The notes under the pieces are model-generated. The model was not told the DNA's origin. It made no database searches and saw only the letters and a list, made by a program, of their open reading frames with translations. A DNA stretch of 64,000 nt from Pseudanabaena frigida (GTDB taxonomy: Bacteria > Cyanobacteriota > Cyanobacteriia > Pseudanabaenales > Pseudanabaenaceae): NCBI GenBank assembly GCA_003242085.1, contig QBML01000014.1, forward strand, positions 1 through 64,000, written 5' to 3'. Every line of letters starts with the position of its first letter. The first letter of the stretch is position 1. This document shows positions 37,725-46,707 of the stretch, in pieces. The position numbers and the translations under genes are program-made.

Positions 37725-38492
37725 TTAGCTGGCAACTTCTTTCCCATGTTGGCGCAATAACTGCATGAGTTCGTCACGATAATCATGAAATATCTTGTGT
37801 CTTTTAACGGAAGCGCTGCGATCGGGAAGGTTGATGCTGATTTCTTTTCTGACGGTGCCCGGTCTCGAACCGAGAGCGTAGATGCGGTTCGCTAAAAACA
37901 CCGACTCCTCTACATCGTGAGTAATCATAAAAATAGTAATATTGGTGCGCTGCCAGAGATCGATCATAAATTCATGCATGGACTCTTTAGTGTGAACGTC
38001 CAACGCTGAGAAAGGTTCATCCATCAGGAGAACCTTTGGCTCAGAGGCTAGAGCCCGAGCGATCGCCACCCGTTGTTTCATCCCCCCCGATAATTGCTTG
38101 GGTAACGCTTTACTAAACTGGGACAAGCCCACAACATTTAAATAGTAACTGGCGCGTTCTCTACGGATCTTTTTCGGAACACCCAGCAACTTAAGCCCGA
38201 ATTCAGCATTTTCTAAAACGCTCATCCAAGGATAAAGGGTGTAGTGCTGAAAAATCATGCCGCGATCGTGACCTGGGGCGTTAATTAACTGACCATCAAC
38301 AATTACCTCGCCAGAGGTTGGGCGATCGAGTCCAGCTATCTGTCTTAATAACGTAGATTTACCAGAGCCTGAAGCTCCAACAGCACAAATATATTCACCT
38401 TGAGAAATATTGATATTAATATCCTTTAAAACAACAAGCTGTCCATTTTTGGTAGGAAAGCTCTTATGGAGATTCTTGATTTGTATGTACAT
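37725..38492 (-). CDS. ABC transporter ATPase, probable guanidine importer
   Basis: A 255-residue ATPase of the nitrate/sulfonate/taurine (SsuB/TauB/NrtD) type. Walker A GASGSGKST, Q-loop, signature LSGGMKQR, Walker B VLLMDEPFSALD and the switch ITHDVEE are intact. It is the third gene of a three-gene operon (binding protein, permease, ATPase) whose leader is a guanidine-I riboswitch. That control, more than the sequence, points to guanidine or a guanidino compound as substrate. In Synechocystis a similar ABC set lies in the ykkC-controlled cluster with a guanidine hydrolase. Confidence 0.88.
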   Translation of the reverse strand: MYIQIKNLHKSFPTKNGQLVVLKDININISQGEYICAVGASGSGKSTLLRQIAGLDRPTSGEVIVDGQLINAPGHDRGMIFQHYTLYPWMSVLENAEFGLKLLGVPKKIRRERASYYLNVVGLSQFSKALPKQLSGGMKQRVAIARALASEPKVLLMDEPFSALDVHTKESMHEFMIDLWQRTNITIFMITHDVEESVFLANRIYALGSRPGTVRKEISINLPDRSASVKRHKIFHDYRDELMQLLRQHGKEVAS

Positions 38493-38551: not shown

Positions 38552-39397
38552 TTACTGCTTTTGACTTGCCCACTTACATGAAAACCGAATCATTGCTTGG
38601 AAAAAAAGATCGAAAGATAGACCAATCACGCCAATTACAATCAATCCCACAAAAATCTCGTCAGTTTTTAGGAATCTACCTGCAACACTGATTCGTCTGC
38701 CTAAACCTTCCGTAGCGGCAATTAACTCTGAGACAATGACTAATTGCCAAGCAGCCGCTAAGTTAATGCGGCAAGCATCAAGGATTCCAGGCAATACATG
38801 GGGAAATATGACCTGAAGTAATGCCGATCTACGTGTACCGCCCAGAATATAGGTGGATTCAATTAACTCCTTAGGGACAAACTTGACAGTATCCATCACC
38901 ATTAAGGAATTGAAAAAGAATACCCCGATAAAAATCAAAGTAATTTTTGGCTCTTCTCCAATGCCTAAATAAAGAATTAGTAGAGGAATAAAAGCTGGTG
39001 CAGGCATATAGCGAACCAAGCCAAACAGAGGCTCTAATAAGGCGCGAATGCTAGCAAAACTTCCCATTAAGACTCCAATAGGAATTGAAAACGCGCCTAC
39101 CAGTAAAGCCCCTACACATACACGCCATAGACTTGCGAGTGTATCTTTTTGAATTTCGCCAGTACTCCACAATCTTGTAAATGCAGTAGCTACTTGTGCA
39201 GGTGATGGCAAAAACTTCGTATCAATATTCCCAAAGGTTGTGATAGCCCACCATAGTGAGAATGGTAGAGCAATCGAAGTGACGATCAGGACTGTGTTTA
39301 GTCTAGGTGGCAGTTCTTCCGCGATTTGCCAAAACACACTGGAGTTAACCTTTCTCGGTCTGATAAATTCACGAATTGATTTGGGTGGTTCATTCAT
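38552..39397 (-). CDS. ABC transporter permease, probable guanidine importer
   Basis: A 281-residue integral membrane protein of the SsuC/TauC/NrtB type with about six membrane helices. The ATPase-coupling loop is visible in STYILGGTRRSALLQVIFPHVLPGILDACRI (G in the conserved place). The conserved PSPAQVATAF near the N-terminus is typical of this family. It starts 5 nt after the binding-protein gene ends, so the two are cotranscribed under the guanidine-I riboswitch. Confidence 0.87.
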   Translation of the reverse strand: MNEPPKSIREFIRPRKVNSSVFWQIAEELPPRLNTVLIVTSIALPFSLWWAITTFGNIDTKFLPSPAQVATAFTRLWSTGEIQKDTLASLWRVCVGALLVGAFSIPIGVLMGSFASIRALLEPLFGLVRYMPAPAFIPLLILYLGIGEEPKITLIFIGVFFFNSLMVMDTVKFVPKELIESTYILGGTRRSALLQVIFPHVLPGILDACRINLAAAWQLVIVSELIAATEGLGRRISVAGRFLKTDEIFVGLIVIGVIGLSFDLFFQAMIRFSCKWASQKQ

Positions 39398-39402
39398 CGT
39401 GT

Positions 39403-40458
39403 TTAGGGGGTTTTCACTTTTTTGGCATAGGCATTGACAAAGCGATCGTCAAATAACTTGCTGGTGTCAGGAGAAGTCTTAGCCAACCCTACCTCATTTA
39501 AAAACTTACTCATTTCTTTCGCAGCAAACGACAAAGAGTTCATATCGTTGCCTACTTCAAAAGCTTTGAGATTTTCTTCAACCGTAAAGATTTTGGTGCC
39601 ATCAGCGTACTGTTTGTACTCATCCAAACTCACGCCCGCACGTTTCGCCATAATGTCATTGGCTTTAGCTGGATTAGCCTTAATATAATCAAGCGTCGCA
39701 AACCATGAATCTACTGCAGCTTGAACTTTTTCGGGATTAGCATCAACAAATTTGCGAGTGAATACTAAGTGATCGGAAATAGCTCCTGGAAATTCCTTAG
39801 AACTGAATAGTTCTTTACTTCCAGCCCGTTTTAATGCTTGAGTCGTAAAGGGGGCAAATACTGCGACGGCATCCACCTGTCCGCCGACAAAGGCAGTAGC
39901 GGCTTTACCAGTTTCGAGAGGTACGAATTGGATATCTTTTGGCGATAAACCAGCTTTTTTCATTCCTAATAACAGGAGGAAATGATCGACTGTCCCTTCC
40001 TCGGCGGCAACTTTTTTACCCTTAAGATCGGCGATCGAATTAATTCCTTCGCTGACAATAATTTTGTCGTTACCAGTTGAATTGTCATTTACTAAAACAA
40101 TTACCTGATCGGCTCCTCCAGCAACTGAGCTAACTGTATCTCCTAATGTTTGACTGTTGGCGTCAATTTGTCCTGCGGTTAAAGTGCTGATCGATTCTAA
40201 ATAACCATCAAACCATTTCAAATCAACGGTGAGATTACTCTTCTTGAAAATACCTTCGTCTTGAGCGACTTGCCAAGGAAACCATCCCGGCCAGGCACTA
40301 AATCCTAAGCGCAATGAATCTGCCGCTTTACTAGGTGAGTTACTCGGTGCGTTGCTAGCGGTAGTTTGAATATTGCTAGCAGGATTTGTGCAACTAATAG
40401 TGAGAGTTAAAGCGACAAAAAATACGAGAAGAGAGGATAGAAGCGATCGCAATTTCAT
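39403..40458 (-). CDS. ABC transporter substrate-binding lipoprotein, probable guanidine importer
   Basis: A 351-residue protein with a lipoprotein signal (lipobox LTISC, Cys near residue 23) and an NMT1/SsuA-type type II periplasmic-binding fold: LRLGFSAWPGWFPWQVAQDEGIF, DLKGKKVAAEEGTVDHFLL, FVGGQVDAVAVFAPF. The annotation by fold alone would be nitrate/sulfonate/taurine binding; the guanidine-I riboswitch in its leader (40501-40670) makes a guanidine or guanidino-compound ligand more likely. It is the first gene of the operon. Confidence 0.87.
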   Translation of the reverse strand: MKLRSLLSSLLVFFVALTLTISCTNPASNIQTTASNAPSNSPSKAADSLRLGFSAWPGWFPWQVAQDEGIFKKSNLTVDLKWFDGYLESISTLTAGQIDANSQTLGDTVSSVAGGADQVIVLVNDNSTGNDKIIVSEGINSIADLKGKKVAAEEGTVDHFLLLLGMKKAGLSPKDIQFVPLETGKAATAFVGGQVDAVAVFAPFTTQALKRAGSKELFSSKEFPGAISDHLVFTRKFVDANPEKVQAAVDSWFATLDYIKANPAKANDIMAKRAGVSLDEYKQYADGTKIFTVEENLKAFEVGNDMNSLSFAAKEMSKFLNEVGLAKTSPDTSKLFDDRFVNAYAKKVKTP

Positions 40459-40500: not shown

Positions 40501-40670
40501 AAAAGCCCAGAAGAAACTTTCAGATGTTAATCCTGAAGTTCCTCCCGGGCTTTTATCCCTCCGTGTAGCCAACTAAACCTGTAGTCGGAGTAGTTAACCT
40601 GCTTCTCTTGGACCAGCATTTAGTTTTGAGGTAAATAGCTTCTACCTTGACCAAATCGGAACCCTAGAAA
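40501..40670 (-). ncRNA. Guanidine-I (ykkC) riboswitch, minus strand
   Basis: Read on the minus strand the region has, in order, the class signatures CTAGGGTTCCG (40657-40667), CTGGTCCAAGAGAAGCAG (about 40601-40618), and ACACGGAGGGATAAAAGCCC (about 40546-40565) with CGGGAGG. The last part overlaps a hairpin (40501-40554, GCCCGGGAGG against CTTCTGGGC) followed by CTTTTCCATTTT, an intrinsic terminator. Guanidine binding in this class stabilises the aptamer and prevents termination, so the downstream ABC operon is switched on by guanidine. The binding-protein gene starts 43 nt further on. Confidence 0.93.
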
Positions 40671-40837
40671 CAATTAAATTTTTTTCTGTAAGATAGGTAA
40701 GATCGCTATTCCTCAAAAGGTTATGTTTTAATCAAAAACTTTTCCACGAAATCAAACTATCAAGTAGACAAGAAAGTATTTGTGCTTGAATATACAAATC
40801 TGAGATATTATCGAACATGACGATTAAAAAGAAAAAG

Positions 40838-40880
40838 GTAGTTTTTAATACAATTTGCGTTACTGCTTTGAGAGTATTAA
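40838..40880 (+). promoter_or_regulatory. NtcA box and -10 ahead of the guanidine catabolic operon
   Basis: GTAGTTTTTAATAC (40838-40851) is a perfect GTA-N8-TAC NtcA site. TATTAA (40875-40880) follows 23 nt later, the spacing of NtcA-activated class II promoters. Predicted transcription starts near 40888, some 35 nt before the guanidine-I aptamer on the plus strand. On the minus strand no -10 is found at the right distance, so the site most likely serves the plus-strand operon. Confidence 0.65.
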
Positions 40881-40920
40881 TCTTTTAGTTAATGTAAATT
40901 CATTCAGCAGAAAGTATTCG

Positions 40921-41133
40921 CTTCTAGGGTTCCGATCGCACTCAATCCCAGTTTTAAGGAATTACTTTGAGCGCGATGACTGGTCCAAGAGAAGCAGCCA
41001 ATCTTTAATCGATTAATTAGAAATAATTTTAATTTGATTGGGAATTGGTCACACGGAGGGAAAAAAGCCCGGGAGAGTCAAATGACAGCAAACTCAATGG
41101 CGAGTTACTGTTCAGGGCTTCCTGGGCTTTCGC
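40921..41133 (+). ncRNA. Guanidine-I (ykkC) riboswitch, plus strand
   Basis: The class signatures are CTAGGGTTCCG (40924-40934), ACTGGTCCAAGAGAAGCAG (40979-40997), and ACACGGAGGG plus AAAAAAGCCCGGGAGAG (41051-41077). A long loop region (40998-41049) lies between the last two. The 3' part can pair in a larger hairpin (AAAGCCCGGGAGA with CTTCCTGGGCTTT, 41118-41130) that encloses AACTC/GAGTT. Only a short T run follows, so the expression platform is less obvious than on the minus strand. The first DUF1989 gene starts at 41179. Confidence 0.93.
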
Positions 41134-41178
41134 TATTGTAGGTATGCTCTTCATAGTTATTTCTTTAAGGAGTTAATC

Positions 41179-41913
41179 ATGCTTACAAAATCTAATCTCG
41201 ATCCAGCCTTAATCATCTGGGATGAAGCTATTCCCGGTGGAACCTATTGGACTCGTCTGATTAAGAAGGGAACAACACTTCGGATCGCCGCGCCTGAAGG
41301 TTCTAGAGGGATCTCCTTTCTTTGCTACAACGCAGATAATACGATCGAGCGCTACAATGCCGCTGATACTGCCAAAATTCAATTTAATGCATTCCTAAAG
41401 AAAGATAAATTGCTATATTCCGACATGGGTCGAGTTTTATTTTCGATTACTGAAGATACTTGCGGAAGCCATGACACGCTATCAGGATGTAGTAATGCAG
41501 CAACTAATTCGGCCAAATATGGAGAAGACAGTTTCTATCGCAGCGCGCGGGATAATTTTCTGTTAGCCTTGGCAAAACGTAATATGGGCAAACGCGACAT
41601 CATGCCCAATGTGAACTGGTTTTCCCATGTTGCAGTTGATGGGAAAGGAAATCTAGTTTGGGCTGAGCAAGTCGCACAAGCGGGAGATTTTATTGATTTG
41701 CGTGCTGAGATGAATGTATTAGCCGTGATATCTAACACTCCACATGTCCTCGATCCCAGTGCTGTATACGATCCTAAAACTATTCAAGTCACTGTTTGGA
41801 AATCTCCTGCTCCCACAAGCGACGATCTCTGCCGTACGAGTTGCCCAGAAGCGATAAGAGGATTTCAAAATACAGATGCCTATTTTGAAGAATTATCGAT
41901 TTTAGCCCACTAG
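41179..41913 (+). CDS. DUF1989 / urea-carboxylase-associated protein, probable carboxyguanidine deiminase subunit
   Basis: A 244-residue protein of the DUF1989 family: GGTYWTRLIKKGTTLRI, CYNADNTIERYNAADTAK, EDTCGSHDTLSGCSN, GKRDIMPNVNWF and DLRAEMNVLAVISNTPH. In bacteria two such proteins (CgdA and CgdB) together hydrolyse carboxyguanidine to allophanate and ammonia; earlier they were called urea carboxylase-associated proteins 1 and 2. I do not assign which of the two this is; it is the longer and has an extra Cys-containing C-terminus. The ATG has AAGGAG 7 nt upstream. It is the first gene after the plus-strand riboswitch. Confidence 0.87.
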   Translation: MLTKSNLDPALIIWDEAIPGGTYWTRLIKKGTTLRIAAPEGSRGISFLCYNADNTIERYNAADTAKIQFNAFLKKDKLLYSDMGRVLFSITEDTCGSHDTLSGCSNAATNSAKYGEDSFYRSARDNFLLALAKRNMGKRDIMPNVNWFSHVAVDGKGNLVWAEQVAQAGDFIDLRAEMNVLAVISNTPHVLDPSAVYDPKTIQVTVWKSPAPTSDDLCRTSCPEAIRGFQNTDAYFEELSILAH

Positions 41914-41959
41914 TTTAATTTCGACTCTATTAACCACAACATTCAATTTGGAGAAGTAT

Positions 41960-42601
41960 ATGTTAGCAACGTTAGTTGAACTCGATCCCCAAAAGGCTAT
42001 CTACAATCAAGTCCTACCTGCTCGCCGTCCTTGGATGCATTTGATCAAGAAGGGACAAACATTACGCATCGTCGATCTTGGCGGCAATCAGGCTGTGGAT
42101 GTGCTGATTTACAATGCTGCGGATACTAGCGATCGCTATAGTGCACCTGATACAATCCGAATGCAGGGGAACATTTTTATCACGACTGGTACAAAGCTAT
42201 ATTCTAGTGATGGCAATGTAATGATGACAGTTGTTAAGGATACTTGTGGTAAACATGATACCTCTGGTGGAGCCTGTAGCCGAGAAAGTAATTCGGTGCG
42301 TTATGGTTTAGATAAGAAATGGCTACACGCCTGTGTAGAGAACTACCTATACGCGCTCAAAGATTATGATATGGGCAAGAGGGATTTGGTGAGTAATATC
42401 AATTTCTTTATGAATGTGCCTGTGAGTGAAGATGGAACTTTAGAGATTGTTGATGGCATCTCCGATCCTGGCAGTACGGTTGAACTGCTGGCTGAGATGG
42501 ATGTACTGTTCCTGATTTCCAATTGTCCACAGATCAATAATCCTTGTAATGCTTACAATCCTACTCCAATCCAATTGATGATTTGGGATGCGATTTCATA
42601 G
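41960..42601 (+). CDS. DUF1989 / urea-carboxylase-associated protein, probable second carboxyguanidine deiminase subunit
   Basis: A 213-residue paralogue of the preceding protein, with the fuller family motifs: GQTLRIVDLGGNQAVDVLIYN, DTCGKHDTSGGACSRESNSV, NINFFMNVPV and LISNCPQINNPCNAYNPTPI. The two proteins are thought to work as a heteromer on carboxyguanidine. The start at 41960 has GGAG 7 nt upstream; an in-frame TTG at 41948 lies inside that site and is unlikely. It sits between its partner (46 nt) and the carboxylase (110 nt). Confidence 0.87.
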   Translation: MLATLVELDPQKAIYNQVLPARRPWMHLIKKGQTLRIVDLGGNQAVDVLIYNAADTSDRYSAPDTIRMQGNIFITTGTKLYSSDGNVMMTVVKDTCGKHDTSGGACSRESNSVRYGLDKKWLHACVENYLYALKDYDMGKRDLVSNINFFMNVPVSEDGTLEIVDGISDPGSTVELLAEMDVLFLISNCPQINNPCNAYNPTPIQLMIWDAIS

Positions 42602-42698: not shown

Positions 42699-42722
42699 AT
42701 GTTCTCTAATTATGTTCTCTAA
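42699..42722 (+). other. Seven-codon upstream ORF made by a 13-bp tandem repeat
   Basis: ATGTTCTCTAATT occurs at 42699-42711 and again, as ATGTTCTCTAAAA, at 42712. The first ATG opens a 7-codon frame ending in TAA at 42720-42722, overlapping the carboxylase start in another frame. Whether it is translated is unknown. Confidence 0.35.
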
Positions 42723-45700
42723 AATTCTAATTGCGAACCGTGGGGAAATTGCTTGTCGGATCATTCGCACTTGCGATCGCTTGGGTATTAAATCTGTTGC
42801 CGTTTATTCGCAAGCGGATGCCTATGCTCTTCATGTGTCAATGGCAAGCGAGGCGATCGAAATTGGCGGAGCCCTAGCGGCCGATAGCTATTTACGTTGG
42901 GAAAGAATTTTAGAAGCAGCAAAACAAACAGGCGCAGAAGCAATTCATCCTGGCTATGGATTTTTGAGCGAAAATGCCGAATTTGCGGAAGCTTGTGCCA
43001 GTCAAGGCATCATTTTTATTGCGCCTACGCCGAGCCAAATGCGTAGTTTTGGACTAAAGCATACAGCTAGAGAATTAGCATCTCAGAATCAAGTCCCGTT
43101 ACTGCCAGGGACTGGACTATTGACAGACGTGGAGGAGGCTTTAAGAGAAGCTGACAAGATCGGTTATCCTGTGATGCTCAAAAGCACGGCGGGTGGTGGC
43201 GGGATTGGCTTGCAACTCTGTCGCAGCCAAGCGCAGTTACCAGATTTGTTTGCGACAGTTCAGCGATTGAGTCAAAATAACTTCAAACAAAGTGGCATTT
43301 ATTTAGAACGGTATGTGGAATCAGCCCGACATATTGAAGTGCAAATTTTTGGCGATGGTAATGGACGAGTGTTGACCTTAGGCGATCGCGATTGTTCGGT
43401 TCAACGCCGCAATCAAAAAGTAATTGAAGAGACTCCTGCGCCTAATGTCTCTGAGGCTTTGCGTCAACAACTTTACGAGGCAGCATTCAAACTGGGGGCA
43501 TCGGTCAATTATCAGTCAGCGGGGACTGTAGAATTTGTGTTTGATAGCGATCGCCAAGAATTTTATTTTTTAGAGGTAAATACGCGACTTCAAGTTGAGC
43601 ATGGAGTTACAGAGACGGTTACGGGGATTGATTTAGTGGAATGGATGATTCGGCTGGCGGCGGGGGATGCTAGTTTTTTTGATACCTACGAGCATTCTCC
43701 TCAGGGGCATTCTATTCAAGTCAGAATTTATGCCGAAGATCCCACCAAAAACTTCCAACCCAGTTCGGGCGTTTTAACTGAGGTTAGATTGCTAGAAGGC
43801 ATTCGTTGCGATCGTTGGATTGAGACTGGTACTGAGATCATGCCCTATTACGATCCTTTGTTGGCGAAATTGATTGTCAGCGGAGAGACCAGAACGGAAG
43901 CGATCGCCAAATTACAATCGGCTTTAGGTAATACCCAAATCGCAGGGATTGAAACCAACCTAGATTATCTTTCCCAAATCCTCCAAGCACCTGAATTTAT
44001 AGCGGGGCATATCCATACTAAATTTTTGAATTCTTTTAGCTATACACCGCGAACCATAGATGTCTTAGAAGCAGGTACTTTTAGCACTATTCAGGACTAT
44101 CCTGGGCGGGTAGGTTACTGGAATATTGGCGTGCCACCTTCGGGCGCAATGGATACCTTAGCCCTAAGGTATGCCAATCGTTTGGTTGGCAATCCTGAAT
44201 CGGCGGCAGCGCTAGAATTTACAGTGAATGGAGCGACTCTCCGTTTTAATGTCGATACGATAATCTGTCTGACAGGTGCGATCATGCAAGCGGAATTGGA
44301 TGGTCATCCAATTGCCTATTGGACTGCGATACGGGTAAGTAAAGGTAGCATTTTACAAATGAAGGCGATCGCAGGTAATGGGTTGAGATCGTATTTAGCT
44401 GTCCAAAATGGTTTTGATGTGCCTGATTATCTGGGTAGTAAATCAACATTTACCCTAGGTAAATTTGGTGGGCATTGTGGAAGGATCTTACGAATTGGCG
44501 ATGTGCTTAAGCTTAATCCTTCTGACAAGCGGACCAGTGATGCCGCACCACTTTTGAGTCTCCCCCCCGCCCTGATTCCTGAGTATCCACAACATTGGGA
44601 AATAGGAGTGCTTTATGGTCCCCATGGCGCACCAGATTTCTTTACCGATGATGATATCGATATGTTCTTTGCGAGTAATTGGGAAGTGCATTATAACTCG
44701 GCACGAACTGGTATCAGATTAATTGGAGCGAAGCCCCAATGGGCGAGAACCGATGGCGGTGAGGCGGGGCTGCACCCTTCCAATATCCATGACAATGCCT
44801 ATGCGGTGGGGGCGATCGATTTTACTGGCGATATGCCGATCGTTCTCGGTGTTGATGGGCCCAGCTTAGGCGGATTCGTCTGTCCTGCCACCATTGCCCT
44901 TGCTGAGATCTGGAAGATTGGTCAGTTAAAGCCAGGGAATACCGTCAGATTTGTTCGGATTAGTCATGAGCAAGCGTTACAGCAAAAAATTCAACAAGAC
45001 TATCAAGTTGCGACCTTAGAATTCAGTTCTACCGCTATTGAAAGTAGATCCACGGAATTTTCCCTTTCGCCTAATTCAACCTTAAATATCGCAGCCTTGA
45101 GTACGGCAGCAATATTGCATGAACTACTGCATAACGAAATTGCCGTAAAGTATCGCCGTTCGGGAGATGATAATATTCTCATCGAGTATGGGGAACTCGT
45201 TCTCGATCTGAATCTTCGTTTTCGGATTCATGCTCTCATGGAATGGTTAGCCAAGAACCCTCTGGCTGGAATTTTGGAATTAACCCCTGGCATCCGATCG
45301 CTGCAAGTACATTACGATAGTCAGATCCTGCCCCTAGAACAATTGCTAGAGAGGCTGATTGTTGCTGAGAACGAGTTGCCATCTGTTACGGATATGGAAG
45401 TGCCGACGCGCATTGTCTATCTGCCCCTATCTTGGGATGATGCCTCAACTAAACTGGCAATTGAGAAGTACATGCGATCGGTTAATCCTAAAGCGCCTTG
45501 GTGTCCCAGTAATATTGAATTCATTCGTCGCATTAATGGTTTAGAGGACATAGAAGCGGTTAAGCAGATTATCTTTAATGCTAGTTATTTAGTGCTGGGG
45601 TTAGGAGATGTGTATCTGGGTGCTCCCGTGGCCACTCCTATCGATCCCCGTCATCGCCTTGTCACTACTAAATACAATCCTGCCCGTACTTGGACTCCCG

Positions 45701-46359
45701 AAAATGCCGTTGGGATCGGGGGCGCATATATGTGCGTGTATGGGATGGAAGGACCTGGAGGCTATCAGTTTTTTGGGCGCACCATACAGATGTGGAATAC
45801 CTATCGCCAAACTTCTGATTTTGAAGCAGGAAAACCTTGGCTGTTACGCTTCTTCGATCAAGTTCGTTTTTATCCTGTCTCCGAAGCAGAGTTACTACAG
45901 CTTCGACAAGATTTTATCCATGGCAGATTTAAACTGCGGATCGAACATGAAACTTTTAGTTTAAAGAAATACAATGATTTTCTTGCGGCTATTGCCGATG
46001 AAGCGGCTATTTTTAAATCTCAACAGCAGCAGTCCTTTGATGCGGAGCGCGATCGCTGGGTAGCTGACAATCTAATGATCGATGCAGATACCGTACCCGA
46101 TATTATCCCTGACTCCGATGAATTTATTCTTCCGCCCAATAGCGAACTGGTAATTTCCCATATTCCCGCCAATGTCTGGCAAATTGTAGTGCAAGTTGGT
46201 AGTGAGGTCAAAGCAGGCGATCGCCTCGTCGTTTTAGAATCCATGAAAATGGAAATGACCGTAGTTGCTAATGTGACGGGTACAGTAACCGAAATCCTCT
46301 GTAATGAAGGGCAGATGGTGTCTGTCGGGCAAGGATTATGTGTGATTTTAAAGTCTTAG
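42712..46359 (+). CDS. Biotin-dependent guanidine (urea-type) carboxylase
   Basis: A 1215-residue single-chain enzyme. Biotin carboxylase 1-450 (KILIANRGEIACRIIRTC, KSTAGGGGIGLQLC, EVNTRLQVEHGVTE). The carboxyltransferase follows as an allophanate-hydrolase-subunit-2-like part (about 450-790; GTFSTIQDYPGRVGYW, IPPSGAMD-type, LGVDGPSLGGF) and a subunit-1-like part (about 810-1060; LGLGDVYLGAPVATP, DPRHRLVTTKYNPARTWTP). The biotin carrier domain ends the protein with ESMKMEM, biotin on Lys1179. It carboxylates guanidine (or urea) with ATP and bicarbonate. Riboswitch control and the two deiminase genes favour guanidine. Asp703 (in GAIDFTGD) may be the residue reported to separate guanidine from urea enzymes (Asn in yeast); this is from memory. 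No ribosome binding site is visible before the ATG. Confidence 0.92.
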   Translation: MFSKILIANRGEIACRIIRTCDRLGIKSVAVYSQADAYALHVSMASEAIEIGGALAADSYLRWERILEAAKQTGAEAIHPGYGFLSENAEFAEACASQGIIFIAPTPSQMRSFGLKHTARELASQNQVPLLPGTGLLTDVEEALREADKIGYPVMLKSTAGGGGIGLQLCRSQAQLPDLFATVQRLSQNNFKQSGIYLERYVESARHIEVQIFGDGNGRVLTLGDRDCSVQRRNQKVIEETPAPNVSEALRQQLYEAAFKLGASVNYQSAGTVEFVFDSDRQEFYFLEVNTRLQVEHGVTETVTGIDLVEWMIRLAAGDASFFDTYEHSPQGHSIQVRIYAEDPTKNFQPSSGVLTEVRLLEGIRCDRWIETGTEIMPYYDPLLAKLIVSGETRTEAIAKLQSALGNTQIAGIETNLDYLSQILQAPEFIAGHIHTKFLNSFSYTPRTIDVLEAGTFSTIQDYPGRVGYWNIGVPPSGAMDTLALRYANRLVGNPESAAALEFTVNGATLRFNVDTIICLTGAIMQAELDGHPIAYWTAIRVSKGSILQMKAIAGNGLRSYLAVQNGFDVPDYLGSKSTFTLGKFGGHCGRILRIGDVLKLNPSDKRTSDAAPLLSLPPALIPEYPQHWEIGVLYGPHGAPDFFTDDDIDMFFASNWEVHYNSARTGIRLIGAKPQWARTDGGEAGLHPSNIHDNAYAVGAIDFTGDMPIVLGVDGPSLGGFVCPATIALAEIWKIGQLKPGNTVRFVRISHEQALQQKIQQDYQVATLEFSSTAIESRSTEFSLSPNSTLNIAALSTAAILHELLHNEIAVKYRRSGDDNILIEYGELVLDLNLRFRIHALMEWLAKNPLAGILELTPGIRSLQVHYDSQILPLEQLLERLIVAENELPSVTDMEVPTRIVYLPLSWDDASTKLAIEKYMRSVNPKAPWCPSNIEFIRRINGLEDIEAVKQIIFNASYLVLGLGDVYLGAPVATPIDPRHRLVTTKYNPARTWTPENAVGIGGAYMCVYGMEGPGGYQFFGRTIQMWNTYRQTSDFEAGKPWLLRFFDQVRFYPVSEAELLQLRQDFIHGRFKLRIEHETFSLKKYNDFLAAIADEAAIFKSQQQQSFDAERDRWVADNLMIDADTVPDIIPDSDEFILPPNSELVISHIPANVWQIVVQVGSEVKAGDRLVVLESMKMEMTVVANVTGTVTEILCNEGQMVSVGQGLCVILKS

Positions 46360-46431: not shown

Positions 46432-46434
46432 GTG

Positions 46435-46477
46435 CAAAGACCTGTGGCACGAGCGCAGCTTGTGCCACAGGTCTTTG
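46435..46477. repeat. 20-bp palindrome
   Basis: CAAAGACCTGTGGCACGAGC (46435-46454) pairs with 46458-46477 with one G-T mismatch, loop GCA. It directly follows the terminator. Confidence 0.8.
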
Positions 46478-46523
46478 ATCTTTATATTGAATTGCGCCCA
46501 GCCACTTATAGCTGTCGCCGTAT

Positions 46524-46578
46524 AAAACCCAAGAATTGATTGACGGCGCTCCGCGCCGCCAATTAATTCTTGGGTTTT
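46524..46578. repeat. Family A palindrome, 26-bp stem
   Basis: Positions 46524-46549 pair with 46553-46578 with two mismatches, loop TCC. Outer arms AAAACCCAAG; right flank GATTTGTCCTAAG is complementary to the left flank of the copy at 10934. Confidence 0.85.
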
Positions 46579-46707
46579 GATTTGTCCTAAGTCAAGACTG
46601 TAGCCATACCATGAATAGCTAGCTATACCGTAGCGATCGCCCCATAGAATTTTTCTAAACGAAAATTCAAGGCTTGCGGGGTTTTATGCTGTAGCTAGCA
46701 ACTGCTA

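Follow-up and report, generated by a model that had tools for sequence, protein, structure and literature searches.

What decides when a cyanobacterium imports and degrades guanidine? Guanidine has only lately come to be seen as a source of nitrogen, and, to our knowledge, few studies address how organisms keep from spending ATP on it while better nitrogen is at hand. The locus described here raises this question in Pseudanabaena frigida, which we take to be a freshwater cyanobacterium. It lies in a window, meaning the whole stretch of DNA analysed, of 64,000 nucleotides (contig QBML01000014.1, positions 1 to 64,000). On the evidence of its sequence, we consider the locus likely to be a divergent regulon for guanidine assimilation that serves the carboxylase/CgdAB route under two-input control, by riboswitches and by NtcA, the nitrogen-starvation regulator.

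Two guanidine-I aptamers on opposite strands

The whole window was scanned with cmscan against 4227 Rfam families at the gathering threshold, and exactly two RNA matches exceeded it, both to RF00442 (Guanidine-I; gathering cut-off 63 bits) and on opposite strands. The aptamer of the importer operon is located at 40540–40678 on the minus strand (77.0 bits, E 5.8e-12), and that of the catabolic operon at 40913–41077 on the plus strand (67.5 bits, E 7.7e-10). Both matches span the whole model (positions 1–107 of 107), and all conserved guanidine-I motifs are intact in both aptamers. A first-pass annotation had claimed complete guanidine-I signatures on both strands and had proposed a covariance-model search as the check; that search returned a significant full-length match on each strand, and the core motifs that the annotation quoted were found. 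Compared with the known guanidine-I (ykkC-yxkD) riboswitch, two copies are arranged here back to back, one for each divergent operon.

Expression platforms of the two leaders

In the guanidine-I class, ligand binding switches expression ON. In each leader, the 3' strand of the aptamer, GCCCGGGAG, is also used by a second hairpin, in which its partner is a downstream stretch with GGGCTTT at its end. The minus-strand hairpin is of the terminator type (40502–40553; MFE −31.2 kcal/mol, z −7.6) and is followed by a T-rich stretch (CCATTTTGTT), whereas the plus-strand hairpin (41064–41130; MFE −32.3 kcal/mol, z −4.4) has a weak T-tract (TTTCGCTATTGT). Both are far more stable than their shuffled sequences; the minus hairpin is kept in relatives and the plus hairpin is nearly invariant in the genus. 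Neither was called by a strict terminator scan, which demands a stem free of interruptions and, immediately behind it, five T within eight bases. Together with the aptamers, the two hairpins closely fill the interval 40501–41133 that had been proposed for the paired switches.

Since the GCCCGGGAG strand is paired differently inside the aptamer, the aptamer fold and the hairpin fold are mutually exclusive at both leaders. The same geometry, a hairpin overlapping the aptamer 3' strand, is seen in known guanidine-I transcriptional ON switches. A guanidine response of both leaders in the ON direction is predicted from these features.

A possible leader ORF of 19 codons (MTANSMASYCSGLPGLSLL; 41082–41141, plus strand) lies inside the plus hairpin, and the GGGAG of the aptamer stands in the Shine-Dalgarno position for it. 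Its frame is shared by the genus and, in part, by two outside relatives; most other cyanobacterial leaders do not have the ORF. Coding is not established for this ORF, because it overlaps the stem of the plus hairpin.

Genes of the importer and catabolic operons

The minus-strand switch had been described as heading an ABC importer operon, and the gene-family matches agree: the operon encodes a substrate-binding protein of the SsuA family/NMT1-like type (39403–40458; TIGR01728, 226.9 bits, above cut-off; PF13379 and PF09084), a permease (38552–39397; PF00528), and an ATPase (37725–38492; PF00005), all on the minus strand. On the plus strand, the predicted carboxyguanidine deiminase pair proves to consist of two paralogous DUF1989 (PF09347) subunits, both over the cut-off, namely the CgdA-type UAAP1 (41179–41913; TIGR03425, 305.3 bits) and the CgdB-type UAAP2 (41948–42601; TIGR03424, 345.4 bits). 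The third plus-strand gene (42712–46359) had been called a biotin carboxylase, which has to be corrected: it encodes a full-length guanidine carboxylase of 1215 amino acids with biotin carboxylase, carboxyltransferase, and biotin carrier domains, and TIGR02712 covers residues 2–1212 with 1868.8 bits against a cut-off of 1303.85.

Asp residues at the positions of residues 1330 and 1584 of the Kluyveromyces lactis urea amidolyase are the criteria for a guanidine, not a urea, carboxylase (PMC11410670). The window's protein has both, as D703 aligns with N1330 and D966, by a position counted from the printed alignment, with D1584. Among homologous stretches, residue 703 is Asp in 67 of 69 and residue 966 is Asp in all 67. 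It is highly improbable that we are dealing with a urea carboxylase in an operon for urea; the NCBIfam name is urea carboxylase and a survey classes the cyanobacterial gene likewise (PMC6737895), but the guanidine-I riboswitch upstream, the CgdAB partners, and the D703/D966 signature all argue against it, and the genome already encodes a urease.

The two stretches that depart from Asp703 are one locus fetched twice (L037 = L170). This locus belongs to Pseudanabaena biceps O153 (G024), in which codon 703 of the carboxylase is AAT, giving Asn for Asp; as read from the gene, this is a natural urea-type residue within an otherwise intact guanidine locus.

Previous studies describe a carboxylase pathway in the gammaproteobacteria V. 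boliviensis, K. michiganensis, and R. terrigena (PMC12508155, PMC12186494), which has the same riboswitch-controlled ABC importer, CgdAB, and guanidine carboxylase. In these bacteria the genes form one cluster with Gd-I upstream, an internal Gd-II, and atzF included; in contrast, Pseudanabaena has divergent operons and two Gd-I switches, and no atzF was detected in its genome. The sll1077–1082 genes of Synechocystis PCC 6803 (GdmH, GhaAB, and an ABC importer) share the guanidine-I control and the SsuA-type importer (PMC8390497), but they form one operon built on a Ni guanidinase instead of the carboxylase route. The Pseudanabaena genome gives no match to the arginase family (PF00491), and hence has no guanidinase of the Synechocystis type.

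NtcA-type promoter sites upstream of the leaders

NtcA binds GTAN8TAC (PMC5460508). An exact site of this type, GTAGTTTTTAATAC, is located at 40838–40851 on the plus strand, 86 nt upstream of the plus aptamer core CTAGGGTTCCG. A candidate −10 box, TATTAA (40875–40880), follows it by 23 nt; this likely box departs from TAN3T and lies in a block conserved in the genus. Facing the importer operon, an NtcA-like site with one mismatch, GTATATTCAAGCAC (40782–40795, minus strand), does not vary among the aligned members of the genus, and 22 nt after it stands a candidate −10 box, TAGTTT (40754–40759, minus strand), whose TAN3T pattern is kept in the genus alignment. The box reads TAGTTT, TAGCTT, or TAATTT in the genus, so that its three middle bases vary while the NtcA-like site is invariant; alone, this composite is not significant, as 24.5% of shuffles yield one.

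Across cyanobacteria, 38 of 71 independent 200-nt regions upstream of guanidine-I aptamers contain an exact GTAN8TAC, where the count of independent regions rests on a k-mer similarity cut-off of our own choosing. The same half-sites at spacings of N4–N7 and N9–N12 occur in 0–3 of the 71 regions. GTAN8TAC is present in 2.6% of background tiles of the same loci, in none of the 71 adjoining 200-nt stretches that hold the aptamer, and in 1 of 71 of the next 200 nt downstream; upstream of non-cyanobacterial guanidine-I aptamers it was found in 0 of 9. In addition, TAN3T boxes are most frequent at 22 nt past the site, towards the aptamer (8/38). Many guanidine-I leaders resemble NtcA-activated promoters in the exact consensus, and the TAN3T peak at 22 nt fits as well; they differ in that the putative site shares its leader with a metabolite riboswitch. 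The Synechocystis guanidine operon sll1077–1082 is repressed by excess ammonium (PMC10094980), which fits this reading. We infer that the promoters upstream of both Pseudanabaena leaders are probably bound and activated by NtcA.

A proposed two-input model for guanidine use

In the model that we propose, the GCCCGGGAG strand of each leader would fold into the long hairpin when guanidine is absent, and transcription would stop, on the minus strand before the importer genes and on the plus strand before cgdA, cgdB, and the guanidine carboxylase gene. Guanidine would lock GCCCGGGAG into the aptamer, and RNA polymerase would read through. The upstream promoters would probably be activated by NtcA under nitrogen limitation, and expression would accordingly need both a low supply of preferred nitrogen and guanidine. 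Imported guanidine would be carboxylated and then deiminated by CgdAB, yielding allophanate and ammonia, and the allophanate would possibly be decarboxylated to urea, the substrate of urease.

A simpler regulon, with the riboswitches as sole control and a coincidental or inactive GTAN8TAC in the window, appears unlikely to us. It gains from the 3.4% of shuffles of the window's region that contain an exact GTAN8TAC by chance, and from two genus members, one without the plus-operon site (G010) and one with a one-base variant, GTG (G024), but it leaves the strict spacing in 38 of 71 upstream regions, the −10 peak at 22 nt, and the ammonium repression in Synechocystis unaccounted for. The two switches had also been supposed to allow different thresholds, so that induction of uptake would precede or follow that of catabolism. 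The two aptamers do differ in their variable parts (77.0 versus 67.5 bits), as do the expression platforms, with the weaker T-tract in the plus hairpin; however, every conserved motif is intact in both aptamers, and divergently oriented genes require two leader RNAs anyway. Separate thresholds are not required, because one switch governs all genes in many relatives, and we regard a difference in ligand threshold as possible but doubtful.

The enrichment of NtcA sites ahead of guanidine-I leaders makes the two-input logic testable across the whole phylum. If the NtcA site acts, guanidine-inducible tools built from these leaders with their native promoters would depend on nitrogen status.

The allophanate step and urease

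Allophanate hydrolase (AtzF) is the usual last enzyme of the guanidine carboxylase pathway. No match over the cut-off was obtained for it in the window's genome, and none is among the matches listed over the cut-off for the other Pseudanabaena carriers. The first-pass annotation had assigned this lineage the carboxylase route in place of a Ni guanidinase; D703/D966 and the lack of an arginase-family match uphold the assignment, but with no recognisable allophanate hydrolase in the genome the route is not visibly complete. Urease is encoded by all Pseudanabaena carriers except one 76%-complete draft (G015).

Allophanate hydrolase is present in 13 of 40 further entries with a cyanobacterial CgdA (39 distinct genomes), a few of which hold CgdA and no carboxylase in the fetched stretch. 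When all carriers are pooled, 15 hydrolase-positive carriers have urease and 8 do not, while 32 hydrolase-negative carriers have urease and 3, all drafts (G015, G123, and G128), do not; the tally was made by hand, and one genome (G127) was scored urease-positive on two sub-cut-off fragments. Hydrolase absence is associated with urease presence (Fisher p 0.018); the p of 0.0004 obtained without the three drafts is descriptive, because they were excluded after we had seen which genomes had no urease. The urease-less carriers are largely of the Gloeobacter and Gloeomargarita types. The pattern is suggestive only, because the carriers are phylogenetically related, these few stretches hold CgdA without a carboxylase, and urease is common in cyanobacteria. 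A survey likewise indicates that cyanobacteria bearing uc are often without ah and that the urease-less ones carry both (PMC6737895). At neutral and acidic pH, allophanate can lose CO2 spontaneously to give urea (PMC7700744), which makes a route through urease chemically feasible. Allophanate may thus leave via urea and urease; a diverged or split hydrolase is just as possible.

We give a little under an even chance to an unrecognised or diverged hydrolase in place of urea and urease, for example a 475-aa amidase (G000:C19) or a standalone AH_C protein (G000:C1). Nearly every genome of the genus encodes a standalone AH_C-domain protein, whose gene directly follows that of the carboxylase in G096 and adjoins the importer genes in Chamaesiphon; in some hydrolase-less genomes (G098, G106, G108, and G109), an amidase adjoins an AH_C-type gene. 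However, AH_C is also found in genomes without guanidine genes, and the 475-aa amidase best matches a different amidase family (NF004815) and is shortened in one genome (G014). Two narrower proposals were rejected: the 475-aa amidase as the replacement hydrolase, as it is not conserved in the genus, and standalone AH_C as a specific marker of guanidine genes, as it occurs nearly genus-wide, including non-carriers. Standalone AH_C-type proteins whose genes directly follow that of the carboxylase or adjoin the guanidine importer were noted at L155 (6964–7320), L160 (2102–2455), and L165 (644–1003).

A broader reading joins both themes: guanidine use would be gated by NtcA and guanidine across cyanobacteria generally, and Pseudanabaena and many other carriers would end the route from allophanate through urea to urease. 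The conversion to urea would then be spontaneous or catalysed by some decarboxylase, for which the standalone AH_C protein may be a candidate. We hold this joint reading only tentatively, and the odds are against its being right in both parts. If true, it would mean that the two known guanidine pathways are combined in a hybrid, and the missing allophanate hydrolase makes such a merging of the two degradation routes testable.

Arrangement of the locus in other cyanobacteria

The system is of a known kind, and its arrangement recurs in other genomes; elsewhere these genes are often united in a single operon. The aptamer occurs in 7 of the 26 genomes of the genus set; beyond this set, the search relied on the core motif of the aptamer and may have overlooked diverged copies. 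The divergent importer/CgdA pair with two aptamers is also found in G034, G027, G029, and G096, as well as in Nostoc (L152 and L156), Amazonocrinis (L147), and FACHB-63 (L138). In Microcoleus, Lyngbya, and Kamptonema, the importer and catabolic genes point the same way, and most of these loci yielded a single aptamer core; an exception with two cores is L143. The loci of Gloeomargarita and Chamaesiphon are divergent, with one core detected in each. Divergent pairs exist at guanidinase loci too, in G043, as judged by its neighbours, and in G081, where an arginase-family gene stands on one side and a start peptide like that of a sodium:solute symporter on the other.

Both twin aptamers carry CGGAGGG in most genus members and both carry CGGCGGG in G034, G027, G029, and G096; such matching states could reflect a concerted change of both switches.

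One genome (G018; L038/L124) holds a decaying copy, in which the cgdA frame is broken, no importer genes were found, and the minus aptamer, without its 3' core, scores 56.3 bits, below the cut-off. A clean empty insertion site was sought but could not be shown: non-carriers retain the CTP synthase neighbour, but there the upstream neighbour is not joined to it. Between the carboxylase and the CTP synthase of the window (~46434–46590), small repeats with inverted copies are present, which are possibly MITE-like and also occur near the loci of relatives.

In G049 (L004, 1723–3114), a guanidine-I riboswitch lies directly ahead of a sodium:solute symporter (PF00474), and similar start peptides follow the aptamers in L001, L009, and L018. 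From this position, the G049 symporter is a candidate non-ABC guanidine transporter.
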